This document shows, piece after piece, positions 9,936 through 56,546 of a stretch of 64,000 nt of DNA (the stretch's first letter is position 1; the number at the start of each line of letters is the position of its first letter). A program made the position numbers and the translations under genes. The stretch is from Simmondsia chinensis (lineage: Eukaryota > Streptophyta > Magnoliopsida > Caryophyllales > Simmondsiaceae). Under the pieces are notes generated by a model. The model saw nothing but the letters and a program-made list of their open reading frames with translations. It was not told the origin of the DNA and did no database searches. The stretch lies in the NCBI GenBank assembly GCA_018398585.1, contig JAGTTD010000010.1, forward strand, positions 17,172,005-17,236,004. The letters run 5' to 3'.

Positions 9936-11318
9936 ATGTTAAACACCAGTCGATCTACCGCTCACGGGGGACACTATCACCCCGATTACATAACACAAGG
10001 CCAGTTTAAGCAGCTCCAATAGCAAATCCACCAGTTCTTCTCACATACACCTGCCAATATAGAATACATGCCAGAACCTGACCATTCCACCACAGTGTCC
10101 CCTCAGACGCAAGCTCAAAACATGAGCGGGGCCACCACTTCTACACCAAGCACTCATCCCGCTCAAGCCAGGAGGGACTCCAGGGGAGCCCCCAGGCCGG
10201 CCACCTCTTACGTCGTGCCAAGGACTCACTCACCCTTTTTGCCTCGGATCCTGTCAGCCCCAGCAGGAAAGGTAAAAGTCTCGAACATCGATCTATTTGA
10301 TGGAACACAAGACCCTGAAGATCACTTGGCTAGCTTTATGGCCCAGATGTATCTACAGGATGTGGGGGAGGACATTTGGTGCAAATGTTTTCCCGCTACC
10401 TTGAAGGGGGTTGCCCAAAATTGGTTCGCCTCCCTTCCGAACTCCTCTGTGGATAGCTTCACGGACCTCTCCGAAAGGTTCGTTCATCACTTCGTTAGTA
10501 ATAAAAGAAGGAGGAGGACGGCGGTGCATCTCCTCAAGTTGCAACAGTATGAAACTGAGCCCTTGAGGAGTTATGTGAAACGGTTTACACGGGCCATGAT
10601 TGACGTCGCCAGCTTGTCTGACGAAATGGCCATTATCGCCGTTATTAACGGATTACAGAACTCCAACTTCAAATTCGCATTGGCAAAGGGGCCGCCCCCC
10701 ACCATCGACGAATTATGGAGGAAGGCCAATAAGTACATCCTGGCAGAGGACGTTATGCACATAATGCCCAGAGCCGAAATGGCTCAGGCATCTCCAGGGC
10801 CCAGAGACCGCCCCAGGCCACCCCAGGGTGACGCCGGACAGGCTAGAAAACCGAACGCGCCGGCCTTCCGAACTCAGAATCAGCAGCCCGTACCTCGCCA
10901 GCTCTTAGAGGTAGAGACGAAGGGACCATCCAAGGACCAGGACCCTACTCCACCTGATGGCGGTGGGGCAGTCTGGTGTGCATATCATCAGGTTTCTACC
11001 CATGACACGGCCAAATGTCGGGGCTTGGACTTCCGCCTCAAGGAAGCCGAGCGTACCGGCCAGTGGGAAGAATACGCAACATTAAAAAAGATGAAGACTG
11101 GGAAAGCTCGAACCGCGAGTGATAGCAACAAAGGTCCCAAGAACGCGGTGGCCAAAGTCATCGCCACCATCGCCATAAAGGTAGTTCCCCCCACATCAGA
11201 GGAGGGGACAGAAATCCTGAACGTGGAAAGGGACGTGGCCCAGAACGCACCCGATGTATTAGCTTCACTAGAGAAGATGCCCGAGGTGTGGACGATCGGC
11301 AAGAGGATCCCCTTGTGA
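9936..11318 (+). CDS. gag: Tat gag polyprotein (one in-frame TAG)
   Basis: The reading starts at ATG 9936, 41 bases after the LTR and the GGCGCTGTCCGTGGGAA primer-site region. An in-frame TAG at 10020 (probably from CAG) separates 28 codons from the 416-codon open part starting at ATG 10068. The Retrotrans_gag region runs from about residue 75 (FDGTQDPEDHLASF) through NWFASLPNSSVDSF and LRSYVKRF to about residue 190. A CxYHxxxxHxxxxC zinc-knuckle-like motif (CAYHQVSTHDTAKC) lies near residue 305. It would form the particle core. The pol frame begins before its end. Confidence 0.85.
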
Positions 11319-11953
11319 TTACAGCCGATATCAACAAACACACGGTACGTAGAATACTGGTAGGCCAGGGCAGTTCCGCAGATATCCTATTTCTGGAATA
11401 CTATAACAAAATGGGGATGCCACTCAGCGCGCTGTCATCGGCACCGTACTCCGTCGTGGGCTTTACCGGAGCGCCCATCCTGCCACAGGGCAGGATAACG
11501 CTGCCCACTATTTTCAGAAACAAAGATGAACGGCGGACGGTCAAGATAGAGTTCCTTGTTATTGGCGGTCCTTCTTCTTACAACGTGATCTTAGGGAGGC
11601 CCTCCTTGAACTGTTTGAAGGCAGTGGTATCTGCCTATCACCTGGCAATGAAGTTTGAAGCGGACATCGGGAGCGTCATGACGATACGAGGGAGGCACGG
11701 CGCGATCTCAGAGTATTATCATACCTTTTCCAGTCTGGCGGTCATGACAGCCGAACCGCTTGAGTTGGGCTCCCCTCCTGAGGCACGCTCTTCCCCTCCG
11801 CCCTTGGAAAAATATGAGTTGGCGCCTGGATGTTACACCTATTTGGGCACCTCCCTCCCCAGACATCTGCATGAAGAGATTGGGGAACTCTTGAGGCAAT
11901 ACCGGGACGTTTTCGCCTTTGCTGCCAGTGAGATGCCGGAAATACCGCCCTAA
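11288..11953 (+). pseudogene. pol: Tat protease region of pol
   Basis: The frame overlaps the gag end by about 30 bases. It contains GQGSSADILF in the retropepsin position, where the family normally has D-Q-G-S-S-A-D; the catalytic Asp is replaced by Gly here, so the enzyme would be inactive. Downstream phrases (IEFLVIGGPSSYNVILGRPSLN, shortened in this copy) match the plant gypsy linker between protease and reverse transcriptase. The frame closes at TAA 11951 but the homology continues without a shift. Confidence 0.8.
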
Positions 11954-12780
11954 GTGATCACTCATCAACTCAACGTACGAGATGATAAGACACCCGTTAA
12001 ATAGCGGAGGCGCAGCTTTTGCACCGAGCGTAACGAGATCATCAAAGCTGAGGTTAAGAAGCTATCTCAAGCCGGTTTATACGGGAAGTGATGTACCCCG
12101 AATGGTTGGCCAACGTGGTGTTAGTGAAGAAGTCTAACGGAAGCTGGAGGATGTGCGTGGATTTTATAGATCTCAACGAAGCCTGCCTGAAGGACTCTTA
12201 CCCTCTACCCAAAATAGACAGGTTGGTGGATTCCACGGCAGGCTGCGAGCTATTTAGCTTCATGGACGCTTTTCTGGATACCACCAGATTCAACTGCACT
12301 CCGCTAACGAAGAAAAAACGGCTTTCATCACGGCAGAAGGTACGTACTGCTACAAAGTAATGCCATTTGGGCTTTAAAATGCAGGAGCCACTTACCAAAG
12401 GCTGGTTAACAAAGTCTCCGCCCCCCAGGTAGGGCGCAACATGGAGGTCTATGTGGACGATATGATAGTTAAGTCGAAACGTAAGTTAGACCATGTTTCA
12501 GACCTGAGAGAGGGTTTGGAGGCCCTTCGAAAGTACCACATGAAGCTGAACCCGGAAAAGTGTTCGTTTGCCGTGCTCGACGGGAAATTCTTAGGCTTCA
12601 GCGTAAATTCTCGAGGAATTAAGGCAAACCCAAAAAGGTGCAAGCCATACTCGATCTGAGGCCACCTCGTTGCCCCAAAGATGTACAAAGGCTGGCCGGC
12701 TGCATGGCCTCACTCCATCGATTCATCAGCCAAGCCGCAGAAAAGGCTCTGCCGTTCTTTAAAGTATTATGAGGGAAACA
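11954..12780 (+). pseudogene. pol: Tat reverse transcriptase, broken
   Basis: Domain landmarks in order: EWLANVVLVKKSNGSWRMC and DLNEACLKDSYPLP near 12100-12210, FMDAF near 12260, MPFG near 12360, and the catalytic YVDD within MEVYVDDMIVKSK near 12445. The frame changes near 12080, 12275, 12360 and 12640, with stops at 11951, 12000 and 12088. The YVDD itself is intact. It would copy RNA into DNA in the parent element. Confidence 0.8.
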
Positions 12781-12850
12781 GCATTTTTCTTGAGATGAGG
12801 AATGCACGGGCGCCTTTGATCAACTGAAGCAGCATTTTGCACACCTTTCG

Positions 12851-13888
12851 GTGATCACCTCCCCTGAGTCGGGCGAGAAGCTAAGTCTCTACCTGGCTAT
12901 CTCAGAAAATGCCACGAGTGCAGTATTAATAGCTGACCGACAGGGACGGCAACTCCCGGTATACTTTGTAAGCCAGACCCTCAAAGACCCGGAAAAGAGG
13001 TACCCTATAATCGAAAAGACCGCCTTGGCCCTGGTCACTGTGACGCGTAAACTAAGACCCTACTTCCAGTCTCACAATATCACGGTACTCACCAACCTGC
13101 CACTCAAAAAGCTGCTCTCCAAGTTAGATTGCTCGGGGCGCCTGCTCAAGTGGGCGGTAGAACTCTCTGAATACTACATACACTATCAGCCTCGCAAAGC
13201 CATTAAAGCCCAGGCTTTGGCCGATTTCCTAGTAGAATGGGACTTTGAGATTGGGGCATCGGGACCGGCAAACTCTCTGGGGAAGATGTCCGTCTGGAAA
13301 ATATTCGTGGATAGATCTGTAAATTCAGAGGGCCGAGGCACGAGCATAGTACTAATCAACCCTAAGGGAGAGCAGGTGGAATATGCGATAAGGTTACATT
13401 TTAACGCAACTCACAACGAAACCGAGTATGAAGCACTGTTGTTGGGCATGGACCTAGCCAAAGTTGCCGTAGCAACTTGCCTAGAGGCGCGAAGTGACTC
13501 GGAATTGGTAGAAAACCAGGTCACGGGCAGTTATGGAGTGAAGGAGCCACACCTATCCCGATACTTGGAGCTGGTTCGAACTAAGGCCTCCGAGTTTCAA
13601 GGCTTTAACATACGGGGCATTTCCCGAGAAAGCAATCATCGCGCTGACGAACTAAGCCGCCTGGCCAGTACTGGAGGAAGGGACCTCGACAGGTGCATCC
13701 GTATGCACGAATCCCAGGTTAAGTATGTGGACAAGCCCACACCCCTAGACGTAATGCAGGTGCAGCATGAGAATAACTGGATGCGTCCAATTTTGGACTT
13801 CATCCTTCACCATGTGAAACCCTCGGATCAGGTGGAAGCGCGAAGGCTGAAAAGGCGAACGGTGCATTTTACAGTCACTGGCCAGTAG
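12851..13888 (+). CDS. pol: Tat RNase H plus second (archaeal-type) RNase H
   Basis: An uninterrupted 345-codon stretch of pol carries two RNase H domains. The first (codons 1-130) has the plant gypsy pattern YLAISENATSAVLI and PVYFVSQTLKDPEKRYP. The second (codons 145-285) starts WKIFVDRSVN and shows the four acidic positions: Asp in FVDRS, Glu in ETEYEALL, Asp in ARSDSELV and Asp in NHRADELSRLA. The Gly usually after the first Asp is Arg here. The duplicated RNase H places the element in the Tat/Ogre group. Confidence 0.88.
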   Translation: MITSPESGEKLSLYLAISENATSAVLIADRQGRQLPVYFVSQTLKDPEKRYPIIEKTALALVTVTRKLRPYFQSHNITVLTNLPLKKLLSKLDCSGRLLKWAVELSEYYIHYQPRKAIKAQALADFLVEWDFEIGASGPANSLGKMSVWKIFVDRSVNSEGRGTSIVLINPKGEQVEYAIRLHFNATHNETEYEALLLGMDLAKVAVATCLEARSDSELVENQVTGSYGVKEPHLSRYLELVRTKASEFQGFNIRGISRESNHRADELSRLASTGGRDLDRCIRMHESQVKYVDKPTPLDVMQVQHENNWMRPILDFILHHVKPSDQVEARRLKRRTVHFTVTGQ

Positions 13889-13904
13889 CTATACAAAAGG
13901 TCGT

Positions 13905-15013
13905 TCACACATCCCGTGTTAAAATGTTTAACGCCGGAAGAAGGGGATTATGTCCTAAGGGAAATCCACTAGGGAATATGTGGGATCCACATTGGAAAGC
14001 GAGCCTTAGCCGGGATGGCGTTAAGGGCCGGGTATTTTTGGCCCACCCTGAGAAAAGATGCTGGCACCCTTATGCGAAAATGCGATAAGTACCAGAGGTT
14101 CGCGCCGCTCATCCATGCTCCTGCCGCGCCGCTACAGCCCACCGTTAACCCCATACCTTTCGATCAATGGGGAATGGACATCATAGGACCTTTCCCCTTA
14201 GCCAGCGGACAAAGAAAATTCTTGATCGTGGCCGTAGACTATTTTAGTAAGTGGGTGGAGGCCTAGGTGGTAGCTCGGATTACAGACAGCGCAACGCGAT
14301 AGTTTCTCTGGAAGAACATCATAACACATTTTGGAATCCCTGGAGCCATTATCACTGACAACGGGACGCAATTCGCATCACCACGATTCCGAGCATACTG
14401 TCAACATATGAACATCGCTCTTCATTTTACCGCCATTGCGTATCCTCAGAGCAATGGGCAAGCGGAGTCGAAAAACAAGCAGATACTGAACGGGCTTCGA
14501 AGAAGGCTGGATGAGGCTAAGGGAAGATGGGTGGAAGAATTGCCCAGTGTACTATGGGCACACTGGATAGTCTACCGTGTGGCTACAGAGGAAACCCCGT
14601 TCATGCTGACTTATGGGGCTGAAGCCATGATCCCAGTGGAGGTGGGAGAACCCAGTTGCCGCATACAGCATTATAATTGTCTGCATAATGAAGTTCAGCG
14701 GAGGTGTGCTCTGGACTTAGAAGACGAAGTTAGGGAGGATGCTCTTCTTCGAATTGTGGCCCAAAAGCAACAAATGTCTCAGTACTACAATAAACGTCTA
14801 AGGAGGAGAAGTTTAGAGGTAGGGGACTTAGCCCTGCGACGAACAAATACCACGGCCCAGGGGGTCGAAACTGGCAAGGTTGCTGCAAATTGGGAAGGGC
14901 CCTACCGTGTGATTCAGAAGCTAGGGGAAGGAAGTTACAAGCTAGAATGCCTAGACGGTTCCCTGTTGCCCCGAGTATGGAACATCAAGAATCTCAAAAG
15001 CTACTACGCTTAG
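13905..15013 (+). pseudogene. pol: Tat integrase, broken
   Basis: An N-terminal zinc-binding region (GYFWPTL, CDKYQRFA) is followed by the core with all three DDE residues visible: Asp in WGMDIIGPFP, Asp in ITDNGTQF and Glu in NGQAESKN. Stops at 14264 and 14299 interrupt the core and the HHCC part is frame-shifted. The C-terminal part (14408-15013, 201 open codons) ends with GPYRVIQKLGEGSYKL and SLLPRVWNIKNLK, the usual end of plant gypsy pol. Confidence 0.85.
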
Positions 15014-21381: not shown

Positions 21382-22491
21382 TCATGGGATCAGTCCCACA
21401 ACGAAACAAAGAGCTCGAATAGGGGGAAAGTGTCCCAAGAAGACCGGACGGCCATGATGGTCTCCGCGAAGGGCGCACTGGAACACCTGATTGCTTGCGA
21501 TAAACATCAGGTGTTCTTTTGACACAGCAAAGCTTGCAATAGCTGGATCCCATCTACCTCTAGACCAAGGCAGCCGAACAAATAACCGCTCCCGCCTGAT
21601 CTAAGAGGAAGGATCCTCCACATTAGTCAGCGTCCAGATGGTAAACACTGGACTCCGGAGCATTATCAGGCATAGTGAAGGGGGCCCTGTGGTCACATCC
21701 CACCACCTCGAAATCTTTGCATCTCGGCTCGATGACAGGTTATCCCAAACCACGCCCGGAAGGGTCATGTTATGAAAAACCCCTGTCTCGGTATTCCAAC
21801 GAACTACGTATGGGCGGTTATTGCTACCGTCAATATAATGGCCCCAGTCAGACAAAAAGAAAAGCTCCCCATGCTAACAAATGTGGTCCATAAGAAAAAC
21901 ACTTCGGGGACCCATGTCCAGGCTTCCCCAAAAATTCCAATCACCCTGCCAATTATACACCTGGTACGCGGTAGGCCAAAAGCCGTGGTAGGGGTAGGAC
22001 AAGTCCATTGTCATAAGGAAAAGGTAGAACCCGAACTCAGAAGTGGAGTCGAAACACCCAAACACTAGGTTTAAAGGGGCATCCAGACAGCTTGTCAAAA
22101 TACCGTCAGGCAACGGCACCAACTGACGTATGCCCAAGGCAGGGTTACACACGAACAACTTGGAGAGATTGTAGTCTCGGTACAATATCAAACCACCCTG
22201 AACACCGAGAACTCTAATATTGTCCGTCAGCACCTCCGTTACCTCTGGCGGCATAACTGGGGAAAAGTCCCCGGCAAAGGAAAAGGCCCCCAGATTGTCA
22301 CGAGAAAACTCGCTTTCTGGTTGTAACAAGACCCCATCAACATCACGCTCAAGAGCGCGGAAAGACTGTTTCTTAACAAAATCACCATCGGTAAGTAAAC
22401 CATAAAATTCAGAAGAGGCATAGCAAAACCTTAAAAGAGATTTGGCAGGAAGCCAAGATAACATTTCACGAGTTACGTCCTCCATAATCAA
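21382..22491 (-). pseudogene. F-box protein gene with F-box-associated domain, antisense inside the Tat element
   Basis: A single minus-strand frame of 369 codons runs from ATG 22491 to TGA 21382, with two in-frame stops (TAG at 21876-21874 and TAG at 21603-21601). The N-terminus (residues 4-40: REMLSWLPAKSLLRF, then DFVKKQSF) is an F-box, the Skp1-binding motif of SCF ubiquitin ligases. Residues 80-200 (GGLILYRDYNLSKLFVCNP) match the start of the F-box-associated domain, and length agrees with that family (about 350-420). A TATA-like GTATAAATAC on the minus strand at 22557-22566 lies about 66 bases upstream of the ATG and 45 bases inside the 3' LTR border. The gene was probably captured from the host; whether related Tat copies carry it is unknown. 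Confidence 0.75.
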
Positions 22492-22556
22492 CTCTCAAGA
22501 TACCAATTAGAGAATGAAAGGGACAAGGAATACCCAAAGGGTGAGAGTATGAAGGA

Positions 22557-22566: not shown

Positions 22567-22610
22567 ACTTTGAAATCAAAGAAACTTTGACCTCAAAGTG
22601 GGGGGCTAAC

Positions 22611-23227
22611 TGATGAATACAAAAGTGACCCCCAGGCGGTACCGACCCCAGGAGCCACTATCACCTCCCAGCATAACCGCCGCTAGGCGGTACAGGGCCC
22701 AGGAGCCACTACCGCCTCCCAACATAACCGCCAACAGGCGGTACCTGCCCCAGGAGCTACTACCGCCACCCAGCACAACCGCCACCAGGCGGTACCGGGC
22801 CCAGGAGCCACTACCGCCTCCCAGCATAACCGCCAACAGGCGGTACAGGGCCCATGAGCCACTACCGCCTCCCAGCATAACCGCCAACAGGTGGTACCGG
22901 CCCCAGGAGCCACTACCGCCTCCCAGTATAACCGCCACCAGGCGGTACAGGGCCCAGAAGCCACTACCGCCTCCCAGCATAACCGCCACCAGGCAGCATA
23001 GGGCCTAGGAGCCATTGCCGCCTCCTTAAACACCCCTGCCTAAATAACCTCACCTCTAGAAATCACCAATGCCCCCATTGGCTGAAGGGACCAGGCGGTA
23101 CCCTACCCCCATTACTTGCTACCCAAACATACATTCCGCTATAAATAGGGGAAGGGACCTCACATGAAAGACAAGGAACTTGAGCCTAGTTCTACCCTCA
23201 AGAACCCAATCAAAAAATTCCGAAACA
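22611..23227 (+). repeat. 3' LTR of Tat element (617 bp)
   Basis: Starts TGATGAATAC after a purine tract (AAAGTGGGGGG) and ends CGAAACA. It carries eight 51-bp units at 22635-23040 and a TATA box CTATAAATAGGGG at 23139-23151. It exceeds the 5' LTR by 254 bp, which equals five 51-bp units minus one base. Confidence 0.9.
22635..23040. repeat. 51-bp tandem repeat, 8 copies (3' LTR)
   Basis: The phase GCGGTAC recurs at 22636, 22687, 22738, 22789, 22840, 22891 and 22942, then a degenerate copy at 22993. Each unit has ACCGCC...GGCGGT inverted halves. Confidence 0.9.
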
Positions 23228-49924: not shown

Positions 49925-50216
49925 GCGTTGCACACAAATTGGAGGAGACCTCAATTTCTGGTACGCTCTAGAAACCTTTCTTCATTTTGGAATTGCTGCA
50001 AGCTTGGTTGACTTTTAGTATAGGAATTGATAACTATATGGTATCTGTTGTGATCCAAATCAATCCAAGACAAGTGAACTACAATCAACTCAAAAACAGT
50101 AGTATAGTAGTATGAAAATTGTAATCCATACAAAGATAGTATAGGTAAGGTTTGTATAATAAGAGGAAAGATAAGGGGAGATAGAGAGTAGAGATAGAAA
50201 GAGGGAGCCAAACTTA
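49925..50216 (+). other. Intergenic or intron sequence
   Basis: No gene recognised. If the leader-exon idea is right this is intron of the S6-type gene. Confidence 0.4.
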
Positions 50217-50644
50217 CCCCCTGTTTAGCAACGGGATAAAGAGGGGTAAAGGGGGGTAAGGGTAAAGAGGGGTAATTTTCTACCTCTGTTTGACAAAGTT
50301 ATTCGAAGGGTAAATGGGGGTAATTTTTTACCCCCCTTTACCCCCCATTACCCCTCTTTACCCCCAATTTTTTTAACCCCCAAATTGGGGGAGTAAAGGG
50401 GGGAAAGGGTAATTTTTAAAATTTTTTTGACACTTTTACCCTTATTTTAACTATAACTCTCTTTATCCTTACTCCTTTACCCAATTGCCAAACAAGAGTA
50501 ACTCATTTACCCCTCTTAATTTGACATATTCAAACAAGGGTAAAATACTACCTTACCCTACCCCCCCGCCCTTTACCCTCCTTTACCCCTCTTTACCTCA
50601 TTTACCCCTCTTTACCCTCCTTTACCCTGTTGCCAAACAAAGCA
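50217..50644. mobile_element. Tourist-like MITE, copy 1
   Basis: TTA duplications (50214-50216, 50645-50647) flank ends CCCCCTGTTTAGCAAC and, on complement, TGCTTTGTTTGGCAAC. The interior is full of GGGGTAAA and TTTACCCC. The TTA duplication fits PIF/Harbinger. No coding. Confidence 0.75.
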
Positions 50645-51000
50645 TTAGGGAGAAAGAGGAGAGAGAGAGACTTGCATTTCAAAATCATACATTCTACCTC
50701 TCTTCTAAGTAAAGCCCTTATATACAGAGTTAGGGAAGGGGTGTAGTTGGAATATAAGATTTATTGTATTTATCTATACTTAAATTACCTCTCACTACAT
50801 TATAGATTGTATCAATATCGTTTTCAAACAATCAGGTTATTTTTTTTATTTTTGGAAACTATAGCTCTACCTGTGGTCAGTCACAAGCTGCGCTTGTAAC
50901 ATTCTTTGGACTTGATGTAGAGGTAGGCCTTTTCAACTGATGATGAAAAGAAACCCTTACCCGTTGTTTGGCAACTGGATAAAGAGGGGTAAGAGTAATG

Positions 51001-51556
51001 TGTTATGATCCAAGAATCCGAGGCATGAGATGATGGTGGCTGTGTTGCTGTCCTGCTGCTATGTTGCTGCTGTGAGCTGCTGCAATGGTGGCTGTCTTGC
51101 AGCCATTTGATGATCATTTAGTGTAGGGAAGTTGTATTAGCTTGTTGATATTGTAACTAGAATGAGTCTTGATGTAATTAGTTGCATAAGTCTCTTGTTA
51201 AGTCATGTAATGAGTGAACTTTAGTGGCATGTGGCCTAGGTGGTCATTGGCCGGTCAAGGTTGGTGGCTAATTAGTTAGATGGCGGTTAAGTCGGTTGGG
51301 CCATGGGTCCATATGCATTGTATCTCTAGATATTTTTAGTCTTAAGCCATCCTAAGAGGAAGTAGTATAAGTAGATAGCTCTAGCTTGTAATCCATTACA
51401 ACTTTGATGAATGAATTGGATATCTCTTGATATCTCTCTCTACTTCTCATCTCCTTTCCCTTCTTATCTCATCTAAACTCTATATTCTTTCTCATCTCAT
51501 ACTCTCACTATCCCAACCAAGGTTGAGGTTCAAGAGCAATCTTTGAAACCTTAACA
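51001..51556 (+). repeat. 5' LTR of 51001-56270 element
   Basis: 556 bp. Ends CCTTAACA before the tRNA-Met primer site. Confidence 0.92.
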
Positions 51557-52645
51557 AGTGGTATCAGAGCCTTAATTTGGCTTCCGAATCAAGCTCTAAA
51601 TTAGAAAAAATTACAAAATCTGATTGATTGTGTTGCAATTAATCAACAAAAACAGTTTGATACTGATTTAGTTCAGTTTTTGTGATTAGGAATTCAATTC
51701 TGCATTTTGAATTTGAGATTGGCGGTTACTGACATATGCAATATTCATAGCCTGCATATTGCCTGGGAGTTGCTTTCGGTTGGGATTAAAATTGATCAAA
51801 TTACATTGATGGAAGTTCAATTGATCAGTATTTGTTGATTACATTCACATCAAGGCTGATTCAGATTGAATTCAGTTGAATCGATCAATCATTAGCTGCT
51901 GAAGTGAGTGCTGAAGCAAGCAGTAGTTGTTGAAGTGAATGCTAAGCTAAACTGTTCTTGATCAATTATTCATTGATCAGTTGGAGAAGAAGTTAAACGT
52001 GAGCTAATTGATCCACATTACATTTGATCATCATCAAAAGATCAGAAACTAGCTGAATTAAGGTTAATTCAGATTCTATAATTCAGTAACTGAGGTTGAG
52101 GTAACGGTTTCTGAACTTCAAGTTACAATTCGATGAGAATTTGTGTTTGTTGCTGGTTTGTGATGAAATTGTGTTGATAAGCATAGAAGTGGTGCGAATT
52201 CATCAAAATCTGTGCGTGGTTCTTAAGAATTATATATTATTGAGTCGATAGTTGCTTAGGCGAAAATCTGACAACGAACTGAGCACTGAAAGCGTTGAAT
52301 CCGATTTCATCCTTGAAGGTTGTGGTGAATCGTGTGTTTTAATCATCATTACAGACAAAATCGAACCTACTTCAGATTCTTAGTTTGAAGTATTCAAGAA
52401 AGCATCTCTGTTAGGGTTTGTTCGAAGAGTTAGGGGTCGTGCGCGAACTCTACAAGTTATGGTTTGTAATCAGTGATGATTGTCGAACCGTTAGCAAGGG
52501 ATTGTTTGTACGAACGAAATAGTGGAACTTCGTTAAGCAATTGGTTGTGGAAGAGTTGCGAAACAAGTCTCCCTCTTCTGCGATTTTCGAACTCGCATCC
52601 TGCGAACTGAGTTGTTCCAGATTGAAGTTGTTGTTCATTGTCAAT
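51557..52645 (+). other. Long leader of the LTR element
   Basis: Begins with AGTGGTATCAGAGCC. It is rich in TTGATC, GATCAAT and AATTGATC words and has no long frame. The 1.1 kb length is unusual for a gag leader and may hold packaging signals; this is inference. Confidence 0.5.
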
Positions 52646-53833
52646 ATGGCTGAGTTGAATGAGCAGTTGGAGAAATTAAGGCAAGAATTGAGACAAGAAC
52701 GTGAGGAATTTCAGAAAAGGAGACAGGAATGGGACGAAATGATGCAGCGAAATATGATTCGGCAATGTTTAGCTTATCCTAACATCAGTCGTGATTGTGC
52801 TGCTGTTCTTGATGCAAATGAGTTTCCGGAGCTAGCGGATAGCGTTAGACAACGGAAGTTCCGTGTTGAGCGAAAAGAGAGAGTGGAATCTGTTGCCGTT
52901 GGAGATAAACTCGTCCCCGATTATGCCGAAATTGTTGAACACAAGCTAGAAGACCCTGAGTTTGAACAAGTTGATCCTTATGAAGACTCTTTGCTAGAGT
53001 TAGAGTATCTTGATGATGTTTGGGCACAGTATGACATACATCCGAAATGGGAATACGATTTTCATGTCAAAGGAATGTTAAATAAAGCAAAGAGTAAGGC
53101 GAAGAGGAACCATCTAAATGAAGCGTTGAAAGACGTTTGGGGTAAAAAGAAGTTTACAAAGCAGAAATTGAAGCAGGAGGTTGTGTTTCAGCCTAGAATG
53201 CTTGATGATCAACAAGAATTAGCTCAAGATTCTGGTCTTATTGATGTATATGCTGGTATACAAGATTCAGATAAGCATGTTGGTATACAAGGATTGGTTG
53301 CAGCAGAATCTGTGATTCCAATTGGAAAACTTGATGCCACTGCTGGGATATCACTGAAAACATCTCCAAATCTGTTAAGTAATACTCCATGGCAAGCTGG
53401 TATGCAGAATCGAAGCACCTTCATACCTGAGCAATCTCATTCTGTTGGGAAAGCTGAGTTTATTGCTGTAGTAACAATGGAAGCACCACAAAAGGTGCTA
53501 AGCACTTCGCCAAGGTATCTTGATACTCGTAATCAGCAATGGGTTTGTGATGGTAGTGATGCAATTGATACATTGCAAGGTTCTTGGAGTAGAGAAAAGG
53601 AGAATTCAAATGTACACTCTTATGACGAGTTACCTCTTGATCCGGGAGAAGATTCTCAAGCTTATATGAAGCCGAAAAGAGTTAAATTTCTGCTGAAAAG
53701 AATTACTCAAGCCGCGAGAGTGCGTTTCAAGGTTCAACGAAGGAGAAACATGGTGCTATACAAGCAATTGATTTGTTGGAGGTGTATAAGTTCAGTAAGG
53801 TGCTGCAACAGGTTTCTACACAGACCAAAATGA
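52646..53833 (+). CDS. Unrecognised ORF A of LTR element (coiled-coil start)
   Basis: ATG 52646 is preferred over the upstream non-ATG extension because residues 1-45 (LNEQLEKLRQELRQEREEFQ, then a W-D-E-M-M phrase) form a strong coiled coil. Residues 90-150 are acidic (DPYEDSLLELEYLDDVW), then a basic KAKSKAKRN patch, and a second basic cluster near the end (KPKRVKFLLKR, RRRN). It has 395 codons. Near 53745 the likely original frame shifts, since continuing in the other frame gives EKHGAIQAIDLLEVYKF and enters ORF B. No family is recognised. By position it could act as a gag-like protein. Confidence 0.55.
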   Translation: MAELNEQLEKLRQELRQEREEFQKRRQEWDEMMQRNMIRQCLAYPNISRDCAAVLDANEFPELADSVRQRKFRVERKERVESVAVGDKLVPDYAEIVEHKLEDPEFEQVDPYEDSLLELEYLDDVWAQYDIHPKWEYDFHVKGMLNKAKSKAKRNHLNEALKDVWGKKKFTKQKLKQEVVFQPRMLDDQQELAQDSGLIDVYAGIQDSDKHVGIQGLVAAESVIPIGKLDATAGISLKTSPNLLSNTPWQAGMQNRSTFIPEQSHSVGKAEFIAVVTMEAPQKVLSTSPRYLDTRNQQWVCDGSDAIDTLQGSWSREKENSNVHSYDELPLDPGEDSQAYMKPKRVKFLLKRITQAARVRFKVQRRRNMVLYKQLICWRCISSVRCCNRFLHRPK

Positions 53834-54780
53834 GTACCATAGATGCTTTAACTGATGCGTTTGAAGTTGGAAGTCCCTTTGATCGGGGAAAGAATGAATT
53901 ACAAGTGCTTGGAGAAGCAAGGCATCTGGTGCTGCTGCTCGTTGATGAAGAACTCGGTGTCAGTGCAAGCATTGGTGGAAAGATGGTAGAGGCTGTGGGT
54001 CATTGTGAAGTTAACATCAAAGCCAGCTATAAAGACAGGGGTTACACATGTTGCAGGCTGCATAATTCTTGTGACAATGAAGCTTCCATTGTCCTGGAAT
54101 TGGTGTTGCTTCGGTTCATACAAAAGCGTTTACTTGAAGGGATGGTAATTGTTGCTAGTTGTTTGATGAATTGTGGATGGTTTGAGGAGGTGTTGGGCCT
54201 CAGGTATGATCTCACAGCTGGTGCACAAAGCTTAGTTGCACAAAGCCTAGTAAAGACAAAGGTTATAGCACTTGGAAATTGGAATAAACAGCAACTGAAT
54301 GGTGCTGATCTGATGCAGAATCTAAAGGTGTTTGGGGTGGTCTATTGTGGCTGTTCCGAATGGAAAAATTATATGCACAAGCTTCAATATTTTCTTAGTG
54401 TTTGGAAGGAGAAGATCAGTGCAACATTAAGGCTAACTCCAGCTGAAATTGGAGTGAATATCAGCAAGGAAATTTGGAACAAATCAACTCTGATTTTGAA
54501 GAAGTTTACAATTGCTCGAGAGTTCTTTTGGTGTCTCCACTTGTTATATTTGTTATTCAATTTTGAGGTGGTTGACAAGGAAGCAAAACTTGATCATTTG
54601 AGGTATACTTGGTGGCTGGATGAGCTTTGGGTCCAGGAAAGACTTGAGAACAGGCTGGAAGGTGTGAGCTGCAGCATTGACAGTGTCGATTGGAATGTTT
54701 TGGGTGTTCAAGTTATGATTTTGTGCATTTGGCATTCAACATTGGTTTATGAACTCTTAGTTGGTGTGTTCTATGCATGA
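53773..54780 (+). CDS. Unrecognised ORF B of LTR element
   Basis: A 335-codon frame overlaps the end of ORF A by 61 bases. It probably continues ORF A after a frameshift. It shows no catalytic or zinc motif; the second half is rich in Trp, Leu and Phe (EFFWCLHLLYLLFNFEV, YTWWLDELWVQERLE). It ends in TGA 54778, and the same frame continues open into ORF C. The TGA may be a lesion (TGA from CGA or TGG) or a read-through point. Confidence 0.5.
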   Translation: MLEVYKFSKVLQQVSTQTKMSTIDALTDAFEVGSPFDRGKNELQVLGEARHLVLLLVDEELGVSASIGGKMVEAVGHCEVNIKASYKDRGYTCCRLHNSCDNEASIVLELVLLRFIQKRLLEGMVIVASCLMNCGWFEEVLGLRYDLTAGAQSLVAQSLVKTKVIALGNWNKQQLNGADLMQNLKVFGVVYCGCSEWKNYMHKLQYFLSVWKEKISATLRLTPAEIGVNISKEIWNKSTLILKKFTIAREFFWCLHLLYLLFNFEVVDKEAKLDHLRYTWWLDELWVQERLENRLEGVSCSIDSVDWNVLGVQVMILCIWHSTLVYELLVGVFYA

Positions 54781-55635
54781 GTTTGGGAAGAAAAGGCCGG
54801 TACTTTCAGATCTTACAAGCTCACAATCAAGATTCAAGCAATAGAAGAATTTGTGGCTGCTGAAAATTTTTGGAGAAATACAATCCCTTCACTGTCAGCA
54901 GTAAATGAGTTGTTCAGCTTGAGTGTTGTTGGTGCTGTCATGGCTTTGGGAAGATGTGATAACTTGTTCGCGTCAATGAGCTTCCACCTGGACAAGAATC
55001 GAACTGAAATGTGTAATAACCGCAGCTATGAGTTGTCTTGGTTATACACTGCCGAATATTTGGGTTCTGTAACACAACATGAGGAATTGGGAAGCAATCA
55101 AGAGTTTGTTGAGCATGGTTTGAGATGGTTTAGTAAGTGGGTGTTTAAGCAATACAAATTTTGGATAAGATCCAAGATGAAAGAGTTGCAGCTGCATCCT
55201 TATGGAATTCCAACGTGTTTTGTTGCCATGATCAAGAAATGGGGCTGTTTGAACTGCACTTGGGAATGTCTACAAGCTGATTTTGATATTTGGTTCTCTT
55301 GGTTTGAGTTTGAAAAATCTCCAGAGTTGCTTGAGGACTTCATATGCAGCTTTATGGGTTTATTGACATCTAACATCTGTTGTGTAGCACTTCACAAGCT
55401 GAATTGCAGAACTGTTGCTGCGTTTTGTGACTCTCGGCAGCAAGATAGTATTTTGAGCTATGTTAACTGCATCATGAGGTGTCGTGAATGTGTTGTTGAT
55501 GTTTGGTTTGATCAGTGCAGACCCCCTGAAGAGTATTATACATTCAAATGTAAACATTGTGTCGAAACAAGCATCCTACAAGGTGTCCTGCTGCAATTTC
55601 AGATTGAGTGCTTCAGATGTCTTCCAGCTGCATAA
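54781..55635 (+). CDS. Unrecognised ORF C of LTR element (same frame as ORF B)
   Basis: Open from the codon after the TGA at 54778 to TAA/TAG near 55633, 284 codons, in frame with ORF B. It is Cys- and Trp-rich (WGCLNCTWECLQADFDIWFS, CKHCVETSILQ). There is no match to integrase, reverse transcriptase or any domain I know. It ends about 80 bases before the 3' LTR polypurine tract. Confidence 0.5.
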   Translation, partial: VWEEKAGTFRSYKLTIKIQAIEEFVAAENFWRNTIPSLSAVNELFSLSVVGAVMALGRCDNLFASMSFHLDKNRTEMCNNRSYELSWLYTAEYLGSVTQHEELGSNQEFVEHGLRWFSKWVFKQYKFWIRSKMKELQLHPYGIPTCFVAMIKKWGCLNCTWECLQADFDIWFSWFEFEKSPELLEDFICSFMGLLTSNICCVALHKLNCRTVAAFCDSRQQDSILSYVNCIMRCRECVVDVWFDQCRPPEEYYTFKCKHCVETSILQGVLLQFQIECFRCLPAA

Positions 55636-55713
55636 CTCCAGCCAGAAGTTGATCTTCATTGTTACAACTCTCTTCTATTCTTGAGGACAAGAATGTTTTC
55701 AAGGGGAAGGGAA

Positions 55714-56270
55714 TGTTATGATCCAAGAATCCGAGGCATGAGATGATGGTGGCTGTGTTGCTGTCCTGCTGCTATGCTGCTGCTGTTAGCTGCTGCGATG
55801 GTGGCTGTCTTGCAGCCATTTGATGATCATTTAGTGTAGGGAAGTTGTATTAGCTTGTTGATATTGTAACTAGAATGAGTCTTGATGTAATTAGTTGCAT
55901 AAGTCTCTTGTTAAGTCATGTAATGAGTGAACATTAGTGGCATGTAGCCTAGGTGGTCATTGGCCGGTCAAGGTTGGTGGCTAATTAGTTAGATGGCGGT
56001 TAAGTCGGTTGGGCCATGGGTCCATATGCATTGTATCTCTAGATATTTTTAGTCTTAAGCCATCCTAAGAGGAAGTAGTATAAGTAGATGGCTCTAGCTT
56101 GTAATCCATAACAACTTTGATGAATGAATTTGATATCTCTTGATATCTCTCTCTACTTCTCATCTCCTTTCCCTTCTTATCTCATCTAAACTCTATAGTC
56201 TTTACTCATCTCAGACTCTTACTATCCCAACCAAGGTTGAGGTTCAAGAGCAATCTTTGAAACCTTAACA
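55714..56270 (+). repeat. 3' LTR of 51001-56270 element
   Basis: 557 bp, preceded by AAGGGGAAGGGAA and followed by the TAATG duplication. Confidence 0.92.
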
Positions 56271-56546
56271 TAATGACGGGTAAACTCTTACCCTTGTTTG
56301 ACAATTGTTTTTTAAGGGTAAAGGGGGTAGTGGGGGTAAAAGTTACCCCTATATATTCCGTCTTTGACTGTGGGTAAAAAGGGAAAGGGCAAATTTAAAA
56401 AAAAAAAAAAATTGACATTTTTGTCTTTATTTTAACTATAATTTTCTTTACTTTTATTTTTTGTTATTGTACATATTCAAATAAGGGTAGCATAATAGCT
56501 TGCCCTACCCCTTTACTCATTTACCAAATTGTCAAACTAAGCATTA

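Follow-up and report, generated by a model that had tools for sequence, protein, structure and literature searches.

LARDs are non-autonomous retrotransposons of more than 4 kb that have long terminal repeats (LTRs), a primer site, a purine tract, a high copy number and a conserved interior described as non-coding, while TR-GAGs are non-autonomous plant LTR elements with one open reading frame (ORF). Here we describe an LTR element of jojoba (Simmondsia chinensis) with a frame of about 1000 codons, located in a stretch of 64,000 nucleotides (assembly GCA_018398585.1, contig JAGTTD010000010.1, positions 17,172,005 to 17,236,004 of the forward strand), hereafter called the window. The frame was open when copies of its family, as a group, inserted, and its amino acids drift near the neutral rate. 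We propose, with a probability of roughly 0.55, a trans-mobilised gypsy-type non-autonomous element that depends on translation of its own RNA, in cis and over the full length. No description of such an element was found in the open-licence literature at the level of titles and abstract openings.

Copies inserted with an open frame

The genome assembly (831 Mb in 35 contigs) was searched with three parts of the element. The last part of the ORF (piece 3, delimited below) gave 2754 first-look candidates as a protein query, and 137 of 137 scored matches had E < 1e-100 at 58–100% identity, the 100% being the window copy itself. The leader gave 2493 candidates (40 scored, 43 match rows) and the LTR 3684 (40 scored, 41 matches). 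Judged by these matches, the frame belongs to a large, high-copy family in this genome. All 14 examined loci to which an LTR or leader match had led, representing 12 distinct copies in addition to the window copy, have the ORF start after the leader.

Our comparisons cover one genome and 17 full copies, all at distinct places. Besides the window copy, eight were picked by ORF, for long open frames or high similarity (four of these are among 30 loci taken from the 137 matches), and eight were ascertained by LTR, from the 41 LTR matches. The LTR pairs that bound these 16 are 94–98.5% identical within each copy. Six of the eight ORF-picked copies have an LTR whose first part is weakly or not alignable to that of the window copy and whose last ~200 bp match, which argues for exchange of LTRs between related families. 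Some match rows are the same copy: L001, L002 and L055 are the window copy, and L003 equals L030 and L059, L040 equals L024, L041 equals L017, L043 equals L012 and L044 equals L015. Of these rows, L001, L002 and L003 were excluded from early analyses, and one indel comparison also excluded L009. Early analyses by codon windows counted two copies twice (four in one indel comparison); their repeat with 32 and 26 distinct copies, at a coverage cut-off of 0.75 instead of 0.8, had the same outcome. L004 and L005 (contig C11) have the same 51.4% match to piece 1 and are perhaps a segmental duplication.

Variants private to one copy were read as mostly post-insertion, and shared variants as having passed through at least one copying round. 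In the eight LTR-ascertained copies and the window copy, 31 of 32 stop variants are private, compared with 842 of 1301 amino-acid variants (459 shared) and 179 of 295 silent variants (116 shared). Relative to silent variants, the shared-to-private ratio is thus 0.05 for stops, which is 20-fold rarer (p=8e-6), and 0.84 for amino-acid variants (p=0.20); in all 17 full copies the ratios are 0.11 (p=1e-7) and 0.78 (p=0.014), respectively. As a control we used the reverse transcriptase (RT) of a gypsy family of the same genome in 11 copies (10 of 133 matches plus the element L063), where the amino-acid/silent ratio is 1.20 among private and 0.23 among shared variants (p=9e-14). Since stop variants are nearly all private, the LTR-ascertained copies, as a group, inserted with an open frame.

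The eight LTR-ascertained copies carry 41 stops, or 34 without an out-of-frame overlap between ORF pieces. A transition-biased model predicts 21 from LTR age and 130 had the frame been free since the split from the window lineage; with the LTR mutation spectrum, which yields 7.1 stop mutations per 100 accepted changes, both expectations rise ~1.7-fold. Compared with the window copy, the ORFs of the other 16 full copies show differences at 12–24% of sites, while the two LTRs within each of them differ at only 1.5–5.2%. Indels are rarer in LTR-ascertained ORFs than in the leader (3.8–5.2 vs 15.0 per kb). Indel phase was considered as proof of frame selection and set aside: a tenfold deficit in pieces 1 and 3 shrank to three- to fourfold in the LTR-ascertained copies and showed no clear phase, and we give it little weight.

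Organisation of the element

A complete LTR retrotransposon spans 51001–56270 (+). Its LTRs (51001–51556 and 55714–56270) are identical at 545 of 556 aligned bases, with one gap, and all the hallmarks named in the preliminary description, paired LTRs, a TAATG duplication, a primer site and a polypurine tract, were located:

50996–51000, unstranded: left target-site duplication TAATG
51001–51556, + strand: 5' LTR of 556 bp, TGTTA...TAACA
51557–52645, + strand: leader of 1.09 kb, 80–88% identity in the 16 full copies, strongly ATG-depleted
51559–51571, + strand: primer binding site TGGTATCAGAGCC, 2 bases past the end of the left LTR, presumably a match to initiator tRNA-Met
52646–53745, + strand: ORF piece 1, between its ATG start codon and an apparent frameshift, with a predicted helical, probably coiled-coil, start
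53066–53125, + strand: constrained patch 1 (piece 1 codons 141–160), Lys/Arg-rich
53746–54777, + strand: ORF piece 2, followed in the window copy by TGA at 54778–54780
53869–54345, + strand: exchangeable module (piece 2 codons 62–220), in three mostly non-alignable versions
54346–54405, + strand: constrained patch 2 (piece 2 codons 221–240), SEWKN...
54781–55635, + strand: ORF piece 3 with its TAA stop (55633–55635), which lies 78 nt before the 3' LTR
55501–55560, + strand: constrained patch 3 (piece 3 codons 241–260), VWFDQCRPPEE...
55636–55713, + strand: tail with the polypurine tract, ~90–99% identity where alignable among copies
55701–55713, + strand: polypurine tract AAGGGGAAGGGAA, directly before the 3' LTR
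55714–56270, + strand: 3' LTR of 557 bp
56271–56275, unstranded: right target-site duplication TAATG

The ~1000-codon frame that begins with the ATG at 52646 has one shift near 53745 and one TGA, as had been read from the sequence at the outset, and the open stretches of the window copy (52523–53833, 53686–54780 and 54781–55635) bear this out. Such a frame is not due to chance, because a neighbouring forward frame of 52647–55713 contains 82 stops. Several other copies carry pieces 1 and 2 in a single frame, and open frames of up to 953 aa occur in the family, which suggests that the frameshift and the TGA are decay of the window copy. Codons 1–23 of piece 2, which overlap piece 1 out of frame, were left out of the codon-position changes, the private and shared variants and the tree-based pN/pS, and included in the codon-model estimates. 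Repeats rich in TTTACCCC-like units flank or enclose the element (50213–50992 and 56271–56511).

Amino acids drift near the neutral rate

Changes per codon at positions 1, 2 and 3 amount to 0.225, 0.216 and 0.237 in the ORF, versus 0.074, 0.051 and 0.277 in the RT of the L063 family. Codon models gave an omega (dN/dS) of 0.71–0.76 in two pairings of LTR-ascertained copies and of 0.73 in ORF-picked copies. The preliminary description had looked to a dN/dS below 1 across copies as a check on its ORF; the value is indeed below 1, but no lower than that of a stop-purged frame free of amino-acid selection, for which the simulated null is 0.76±0.04 (12 runs on random codon strings under the LTR spectrum, with only stops rejected). 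A raw omega below 1 was consequently rejected as proof of protein selection. The spectrum derives from 310 LTR-pair mutations and is CG/CHG-rich: in 17 LTR pairs (window, L039–L054) C-to-T change reaches 0.18 in CG and 0.12 in CHG contexts, versus 0.018 in CHH. Controls of the same genome have an omega of 0.08–0.10 for the gypsy RT and of 0.38–0.44 for the gag N-terminus (12 copies: 10 of 152 matches, L040 and L063). The earlier view of the ORF as a derived gag or captured host gene under normal protein constraint is not supported by values this close to the neutral one.

The tree-based ratio of amino-acid to silent polymorphism (pN/pS) leads in the same direction. For pieces 1, 2 and 3 it is 1.00, 0.96 and 0.97 in 17, 16 and 17 full copies, versus nulls under the LTR spectrum of 1.05±0.06, 1.08±0.05 and 1.00±0.06; among distinct copies it is 0.98 for piece 3 (32 copies, null 0.94±0.08) and 0.96 for piece 2 (26 copies, null 1.09±0.05). 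Earlier omega values of 0.61, 0.76 and 0.89 for the three pieces came from loci mostly found by piece 3, with two copies doubled. Compared with the neutral expectation, amino-acid changes are not clearly rarer than silent ones, as they would be in an ordinary protein-coding gene. Local pN/pS ranges from 0.26 to 1.82 (early analysis, two copies doubled), and the codon windows with the highest values in pieces 2 and 3 fall inside the simulated neutral range (in distinct copies piece 3 peaks at 1.84, null median 1.61). At the low end stand the three patches listed above. Patch 1 has a pN/pS of 0.36 in 17 copies, with a minimum of 0.45 in 50 neutral simulations, and patch 2 one of 0.42–0.45, below all null simulations (null minimum 0.60 for the 0.42 of distinct copies). 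For patch 3 the 32 distinct copies give 0.34 (null minimum 0.43) and the 17 full copies 0.55, a value within the null. Altogether, amino-acid constraint is absent to weak, and clearest in piece 2.

The ORF product and its relation to gypsy elements

No significant relative of the ORF pieces was found in Pfam (E up to 10), in PDB sequences or in a database of 5.8 billion proteins whose plant coverage is uncertain, and a profile search with piece 3 gave no significant match; a strong gag/pol match, which the preliminary description had weighed, did not emerge. Unlike a TR-GAG, pieces 1–3 match no gag domain of Pfam at E values up to 10, and unlike in an autonomous Ty3/gypsy element, no pol domain (RT, integrase, protease) was found in the interior. 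An out-of-frame or antisense gag-pol was also considered and rejected: six-frame comparison of the interior with L063 and the gypsy-like stretch of the window reached only chance level, as did a reversed control. The search of Rfam found no structured RNA family at gathering score. The original proposal of a distinct family with a large unrecognised ORF is supported, no pol domain having been found in that ORF.

L063 is a gypsy element with gag, protease, RT, RNase H and integrase domains and an LTR of ~406 bp. It shares with the family part of the LTR end and the polypurine-tract region, the last 34 tail bases matching it at 82%. In copy L040 the ORF start is replaced by sequence that in L063 adjoins the gag domain upstream. 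This gag-associated gypsy sequence (L040 1761–2090) has 4295 first-look candidates in the genome. On present alignments L063 is best taken as a relative and not as a proven partner. The autonomous partner with matching LTR that had been suggested at the outset did not turn up: none with the same full LTR was found, and no search aimed at one was completed.

In composition, piece 1 is protein-like (correlation of 0.75 with the average protein), and cysteine plus tryptophan make up 10.3% of piece 2 and 10.6% of piece 3, compared with 6.6% and 6.2% in stop-free random DNA of the same base content and 2.5% in the average protein. The Cys/Trp-rich end noted in the preliminary description may partly be a by-product of stop-free T/G-rich DNA. 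The coiled-coil start proposed there is plausible, with residues 1–30 modelled as a helix at a mean predicted local distance difference test (pLDDT) score above 90 within a piece 1 model of mean pLDDT 42; in L040 this start is the part replaced. Neither piece 3 (pLDDT 30) nor most of piece 1 gave a confident fold, which is weak evidence given the shallow alignments.

Leader, frame end and modules

ATG is the most depleted trinucleotide in the 17 leaders: it occurs 108 times where dinucleotide shuffles predict 490. CAT, the reverse-strand control, shows no such depletion (305 vs 327); the leaders are homologous and do not constitute 17 independent trials. Each carries 3–10 ATGs versus about 27–31 expected (window copy 7 vs ~29). 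At the other end of the frame, 14 of 17 copies have their last in-frame stop 50–216 nt upstream of the 3' LTR. At least three versions of the middle of piece 2, for the most part not alignable with one another, occur in 16 of the 17 copies (L043 has no anchor). The length of this module is divisible by three in 14 of the 16, and 14 of the 16 contain zero or one stop, the two of other length being those with many stops. As far as alignments tell, the internal module is swapped, usually in frame.

Elsewhere in the window, fragments at 10023–15013 (+) by eye resemble Ty3/gypsy gag-pol and would represent the interior of a second LTR element. At 22606–23008 two antiparallel overlapping ORFs of an imperfect repeated unit lie beside an F-box-like ORF (21874–22494), also by eye.

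Discussion

We propose that the element borrows its replication proteins in trans and that its RNA would be built as a translatable message, with an ATG-poor leader scanned by ribosomes and then a frame of ~1000 codons ending near the polypurine tract. Translation of this RNA end to end in cis may be what is selected. With a stop, a frameshift or an ATG upstream of the frame, a long part of the RNA would go untranslated and could expose it to nonsense-mediated decay or RDR6 silencing; alternatively, such breaks might disrupt a polysome route by which the RNA reaches gag. The protein would be mostly a by-product, apart from a possible minor role in cis for its three short motifs and helical start. 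Cis-acting selection is probable, since a helper protein working in trans would give one copy after another no reason to stay open. More tentatively, and a little short of an even bet, the family may stand for a class of retrotransposons in which selection preserves translation of the RNA and hardly its product, the ORF being a placeholder that lets the RNA pass for, and be treated as, a normal message, with modules that can be swapped freely provided that it remains open.

According to PMC8892269, degenerated gypsy elements that spawn small interfering RNAs are poorly associated with polysomes, and numerous translated transposable elements spawn none. The same paper reports that in EVADE, a Ty1/Copia element, translation itself triggers silencing via ribosome stalling (PMC8892269). 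EVADE resembles our case in that the translation state of plant LTR RNAs is linked to RDR6 silencing, and differs in being autonomous; its translation-triggered silencing warns against a simple rule that translation protects (PMC8892269). Because translation can itself trigger silencing, the protective step of our model is put forward as a hypothesis.

Several observations weigh against the proposal. The three short patches look protein-constrained, and piece 2 as a whole falls under all neutral simulations (0/50 and 0/60 as low). Nulls simulated without the CG/CHG excess rise to 1.13, 1.10 and 1.06 for pieces 1, 2 and 3, with 50, 50 and 49 of 50 runs exceeding the observed values; source copies lacking this excess would place the pieces under the nulls, so that weak constraint is likely. 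A likelihood comparison that takes no account of mutation context separates omega from 1 (gain 10–15). The RT control consists of the best protein matches and is biased towards conservation, and in the small gag N-terminus control the shift from private to shared variants is similarly modest (2.03 to 1.38, p=0.27). Indel lengths show no clear excess of multiples of three (38/114, 27/121, 12/135). The depletion of TTT in the leaders (456 occurrences, 855 predicted by dinucleotide shuffles) comes close to that of ATG (mean z -5.1 vs -5.5), so start codons do not explain all depletion there, and in 3 of 17 copies the frame continues into the 3' LTR. Finally, classical LARDs move without such a frame.

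Some of these points would suit a rapidly evolving, mainly cis-acting protein that works through short motifs and has long free linkers, for example a gag adaptor or an RNA binder. The three windows constrained beyond or near the simulation edge, the confident helix at residues 1–30 and the gypsy gag-associated N-terminus of L040 speak for it; yet the motifs occupy ~60 of ~1000 codons, while stops are purged across the whole frame to near the LTR, and we consider this reading unlikely, if deserving of attention. Less credible to us is a rapidly evolving protein acting in trans, for instance an anti-silencing factor in an arms race, whose conserved and positively selected sites average near neutrality. 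It would account for a near-neutral mean omega with low and high codon windows (pN/pS 0.26 to 1.82) and for the modular exchange, but the highest windows of pieces 2 and 3 do not leave the neutral range, and such a public good should decay in most copies, whereas the eight LTR-ascertained ones as a group fit an open frame at insertion.

That the ORF is a captured host gene or a very derived gag under ordinary constraint appears decidedly improbable: the protein-like composition of piece 1 (correlation 0.75) and the gag-associated N-terminus of L040 would agree with it, and the lack of any significant match in Pfam, PDB or a protein database of uncertain plant coverage, the chance-level six-frame similarity to gypsy gag-pol and the near-neutral amino-acid change do not. 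As for an open frame that is simply a relic of recent descent from one intact ORF, with nothing selected, near-neutral amino-acid change is what it predicts. We give this reading hardly any weight, since it is already contradicted by ORFs that differ from the window copy by 12–24% when their own LTRs differ by 1.5–5.2%, and by stops that are nearly absent from shared variation and number 41 (34 without overlap) against 130 expected if unselected since the split and 21 from decay after insertion. Translation in cis is our preferred explanation.

If correct, this explanation would make it testable why some non-autonomous elements keep and others lose coding capacity, and whether plants sense retrotransposon RNA by its translation. 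A long frame conserved across repeat copies does not by itself show that its protein has a function, and pipelines that annotate such frames as genes would go astray. The comparison of private and shared variants tells a selected frame from a selected protein with genome copies only.

Among known systems, the jojoba element has in common with LARDs its apparent non-autonomy, size, LTRs, primer site, purine tract, high copy number and conserved interior; it differs in its stop-purged frame of ~1000 codons and ATG-poor leader, LARDs being defined by the lack of coding capacity. With TR-GAGs it shares the single ORF of a plant LTR element; unlike in those, no gag domain was found in this ORF with Pfam, its length is ~1000 codons and its amino acids are near-neutral. 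Ty3/gypsy elements of the L063 type are related to it in the purine-tract region, part of the LTR end and, in L040, the pre-gag sequence, but L063 has gag-pol domains and an LTR of ~406 bp, and the family interior matches it at chance level. The defective interfering RNAs of a coronavirus, mouse hepatitis virus (MHV), are helper-dependent RNAs that must be translated, as we propose for the jojoba element, although they belong to an RNA virus and not to a retroelement, and no relatedness is implied. What the genome copies alone display, stops purged while amino acids drift, would be the evolutionary counterpart of such a need for translation in cis.

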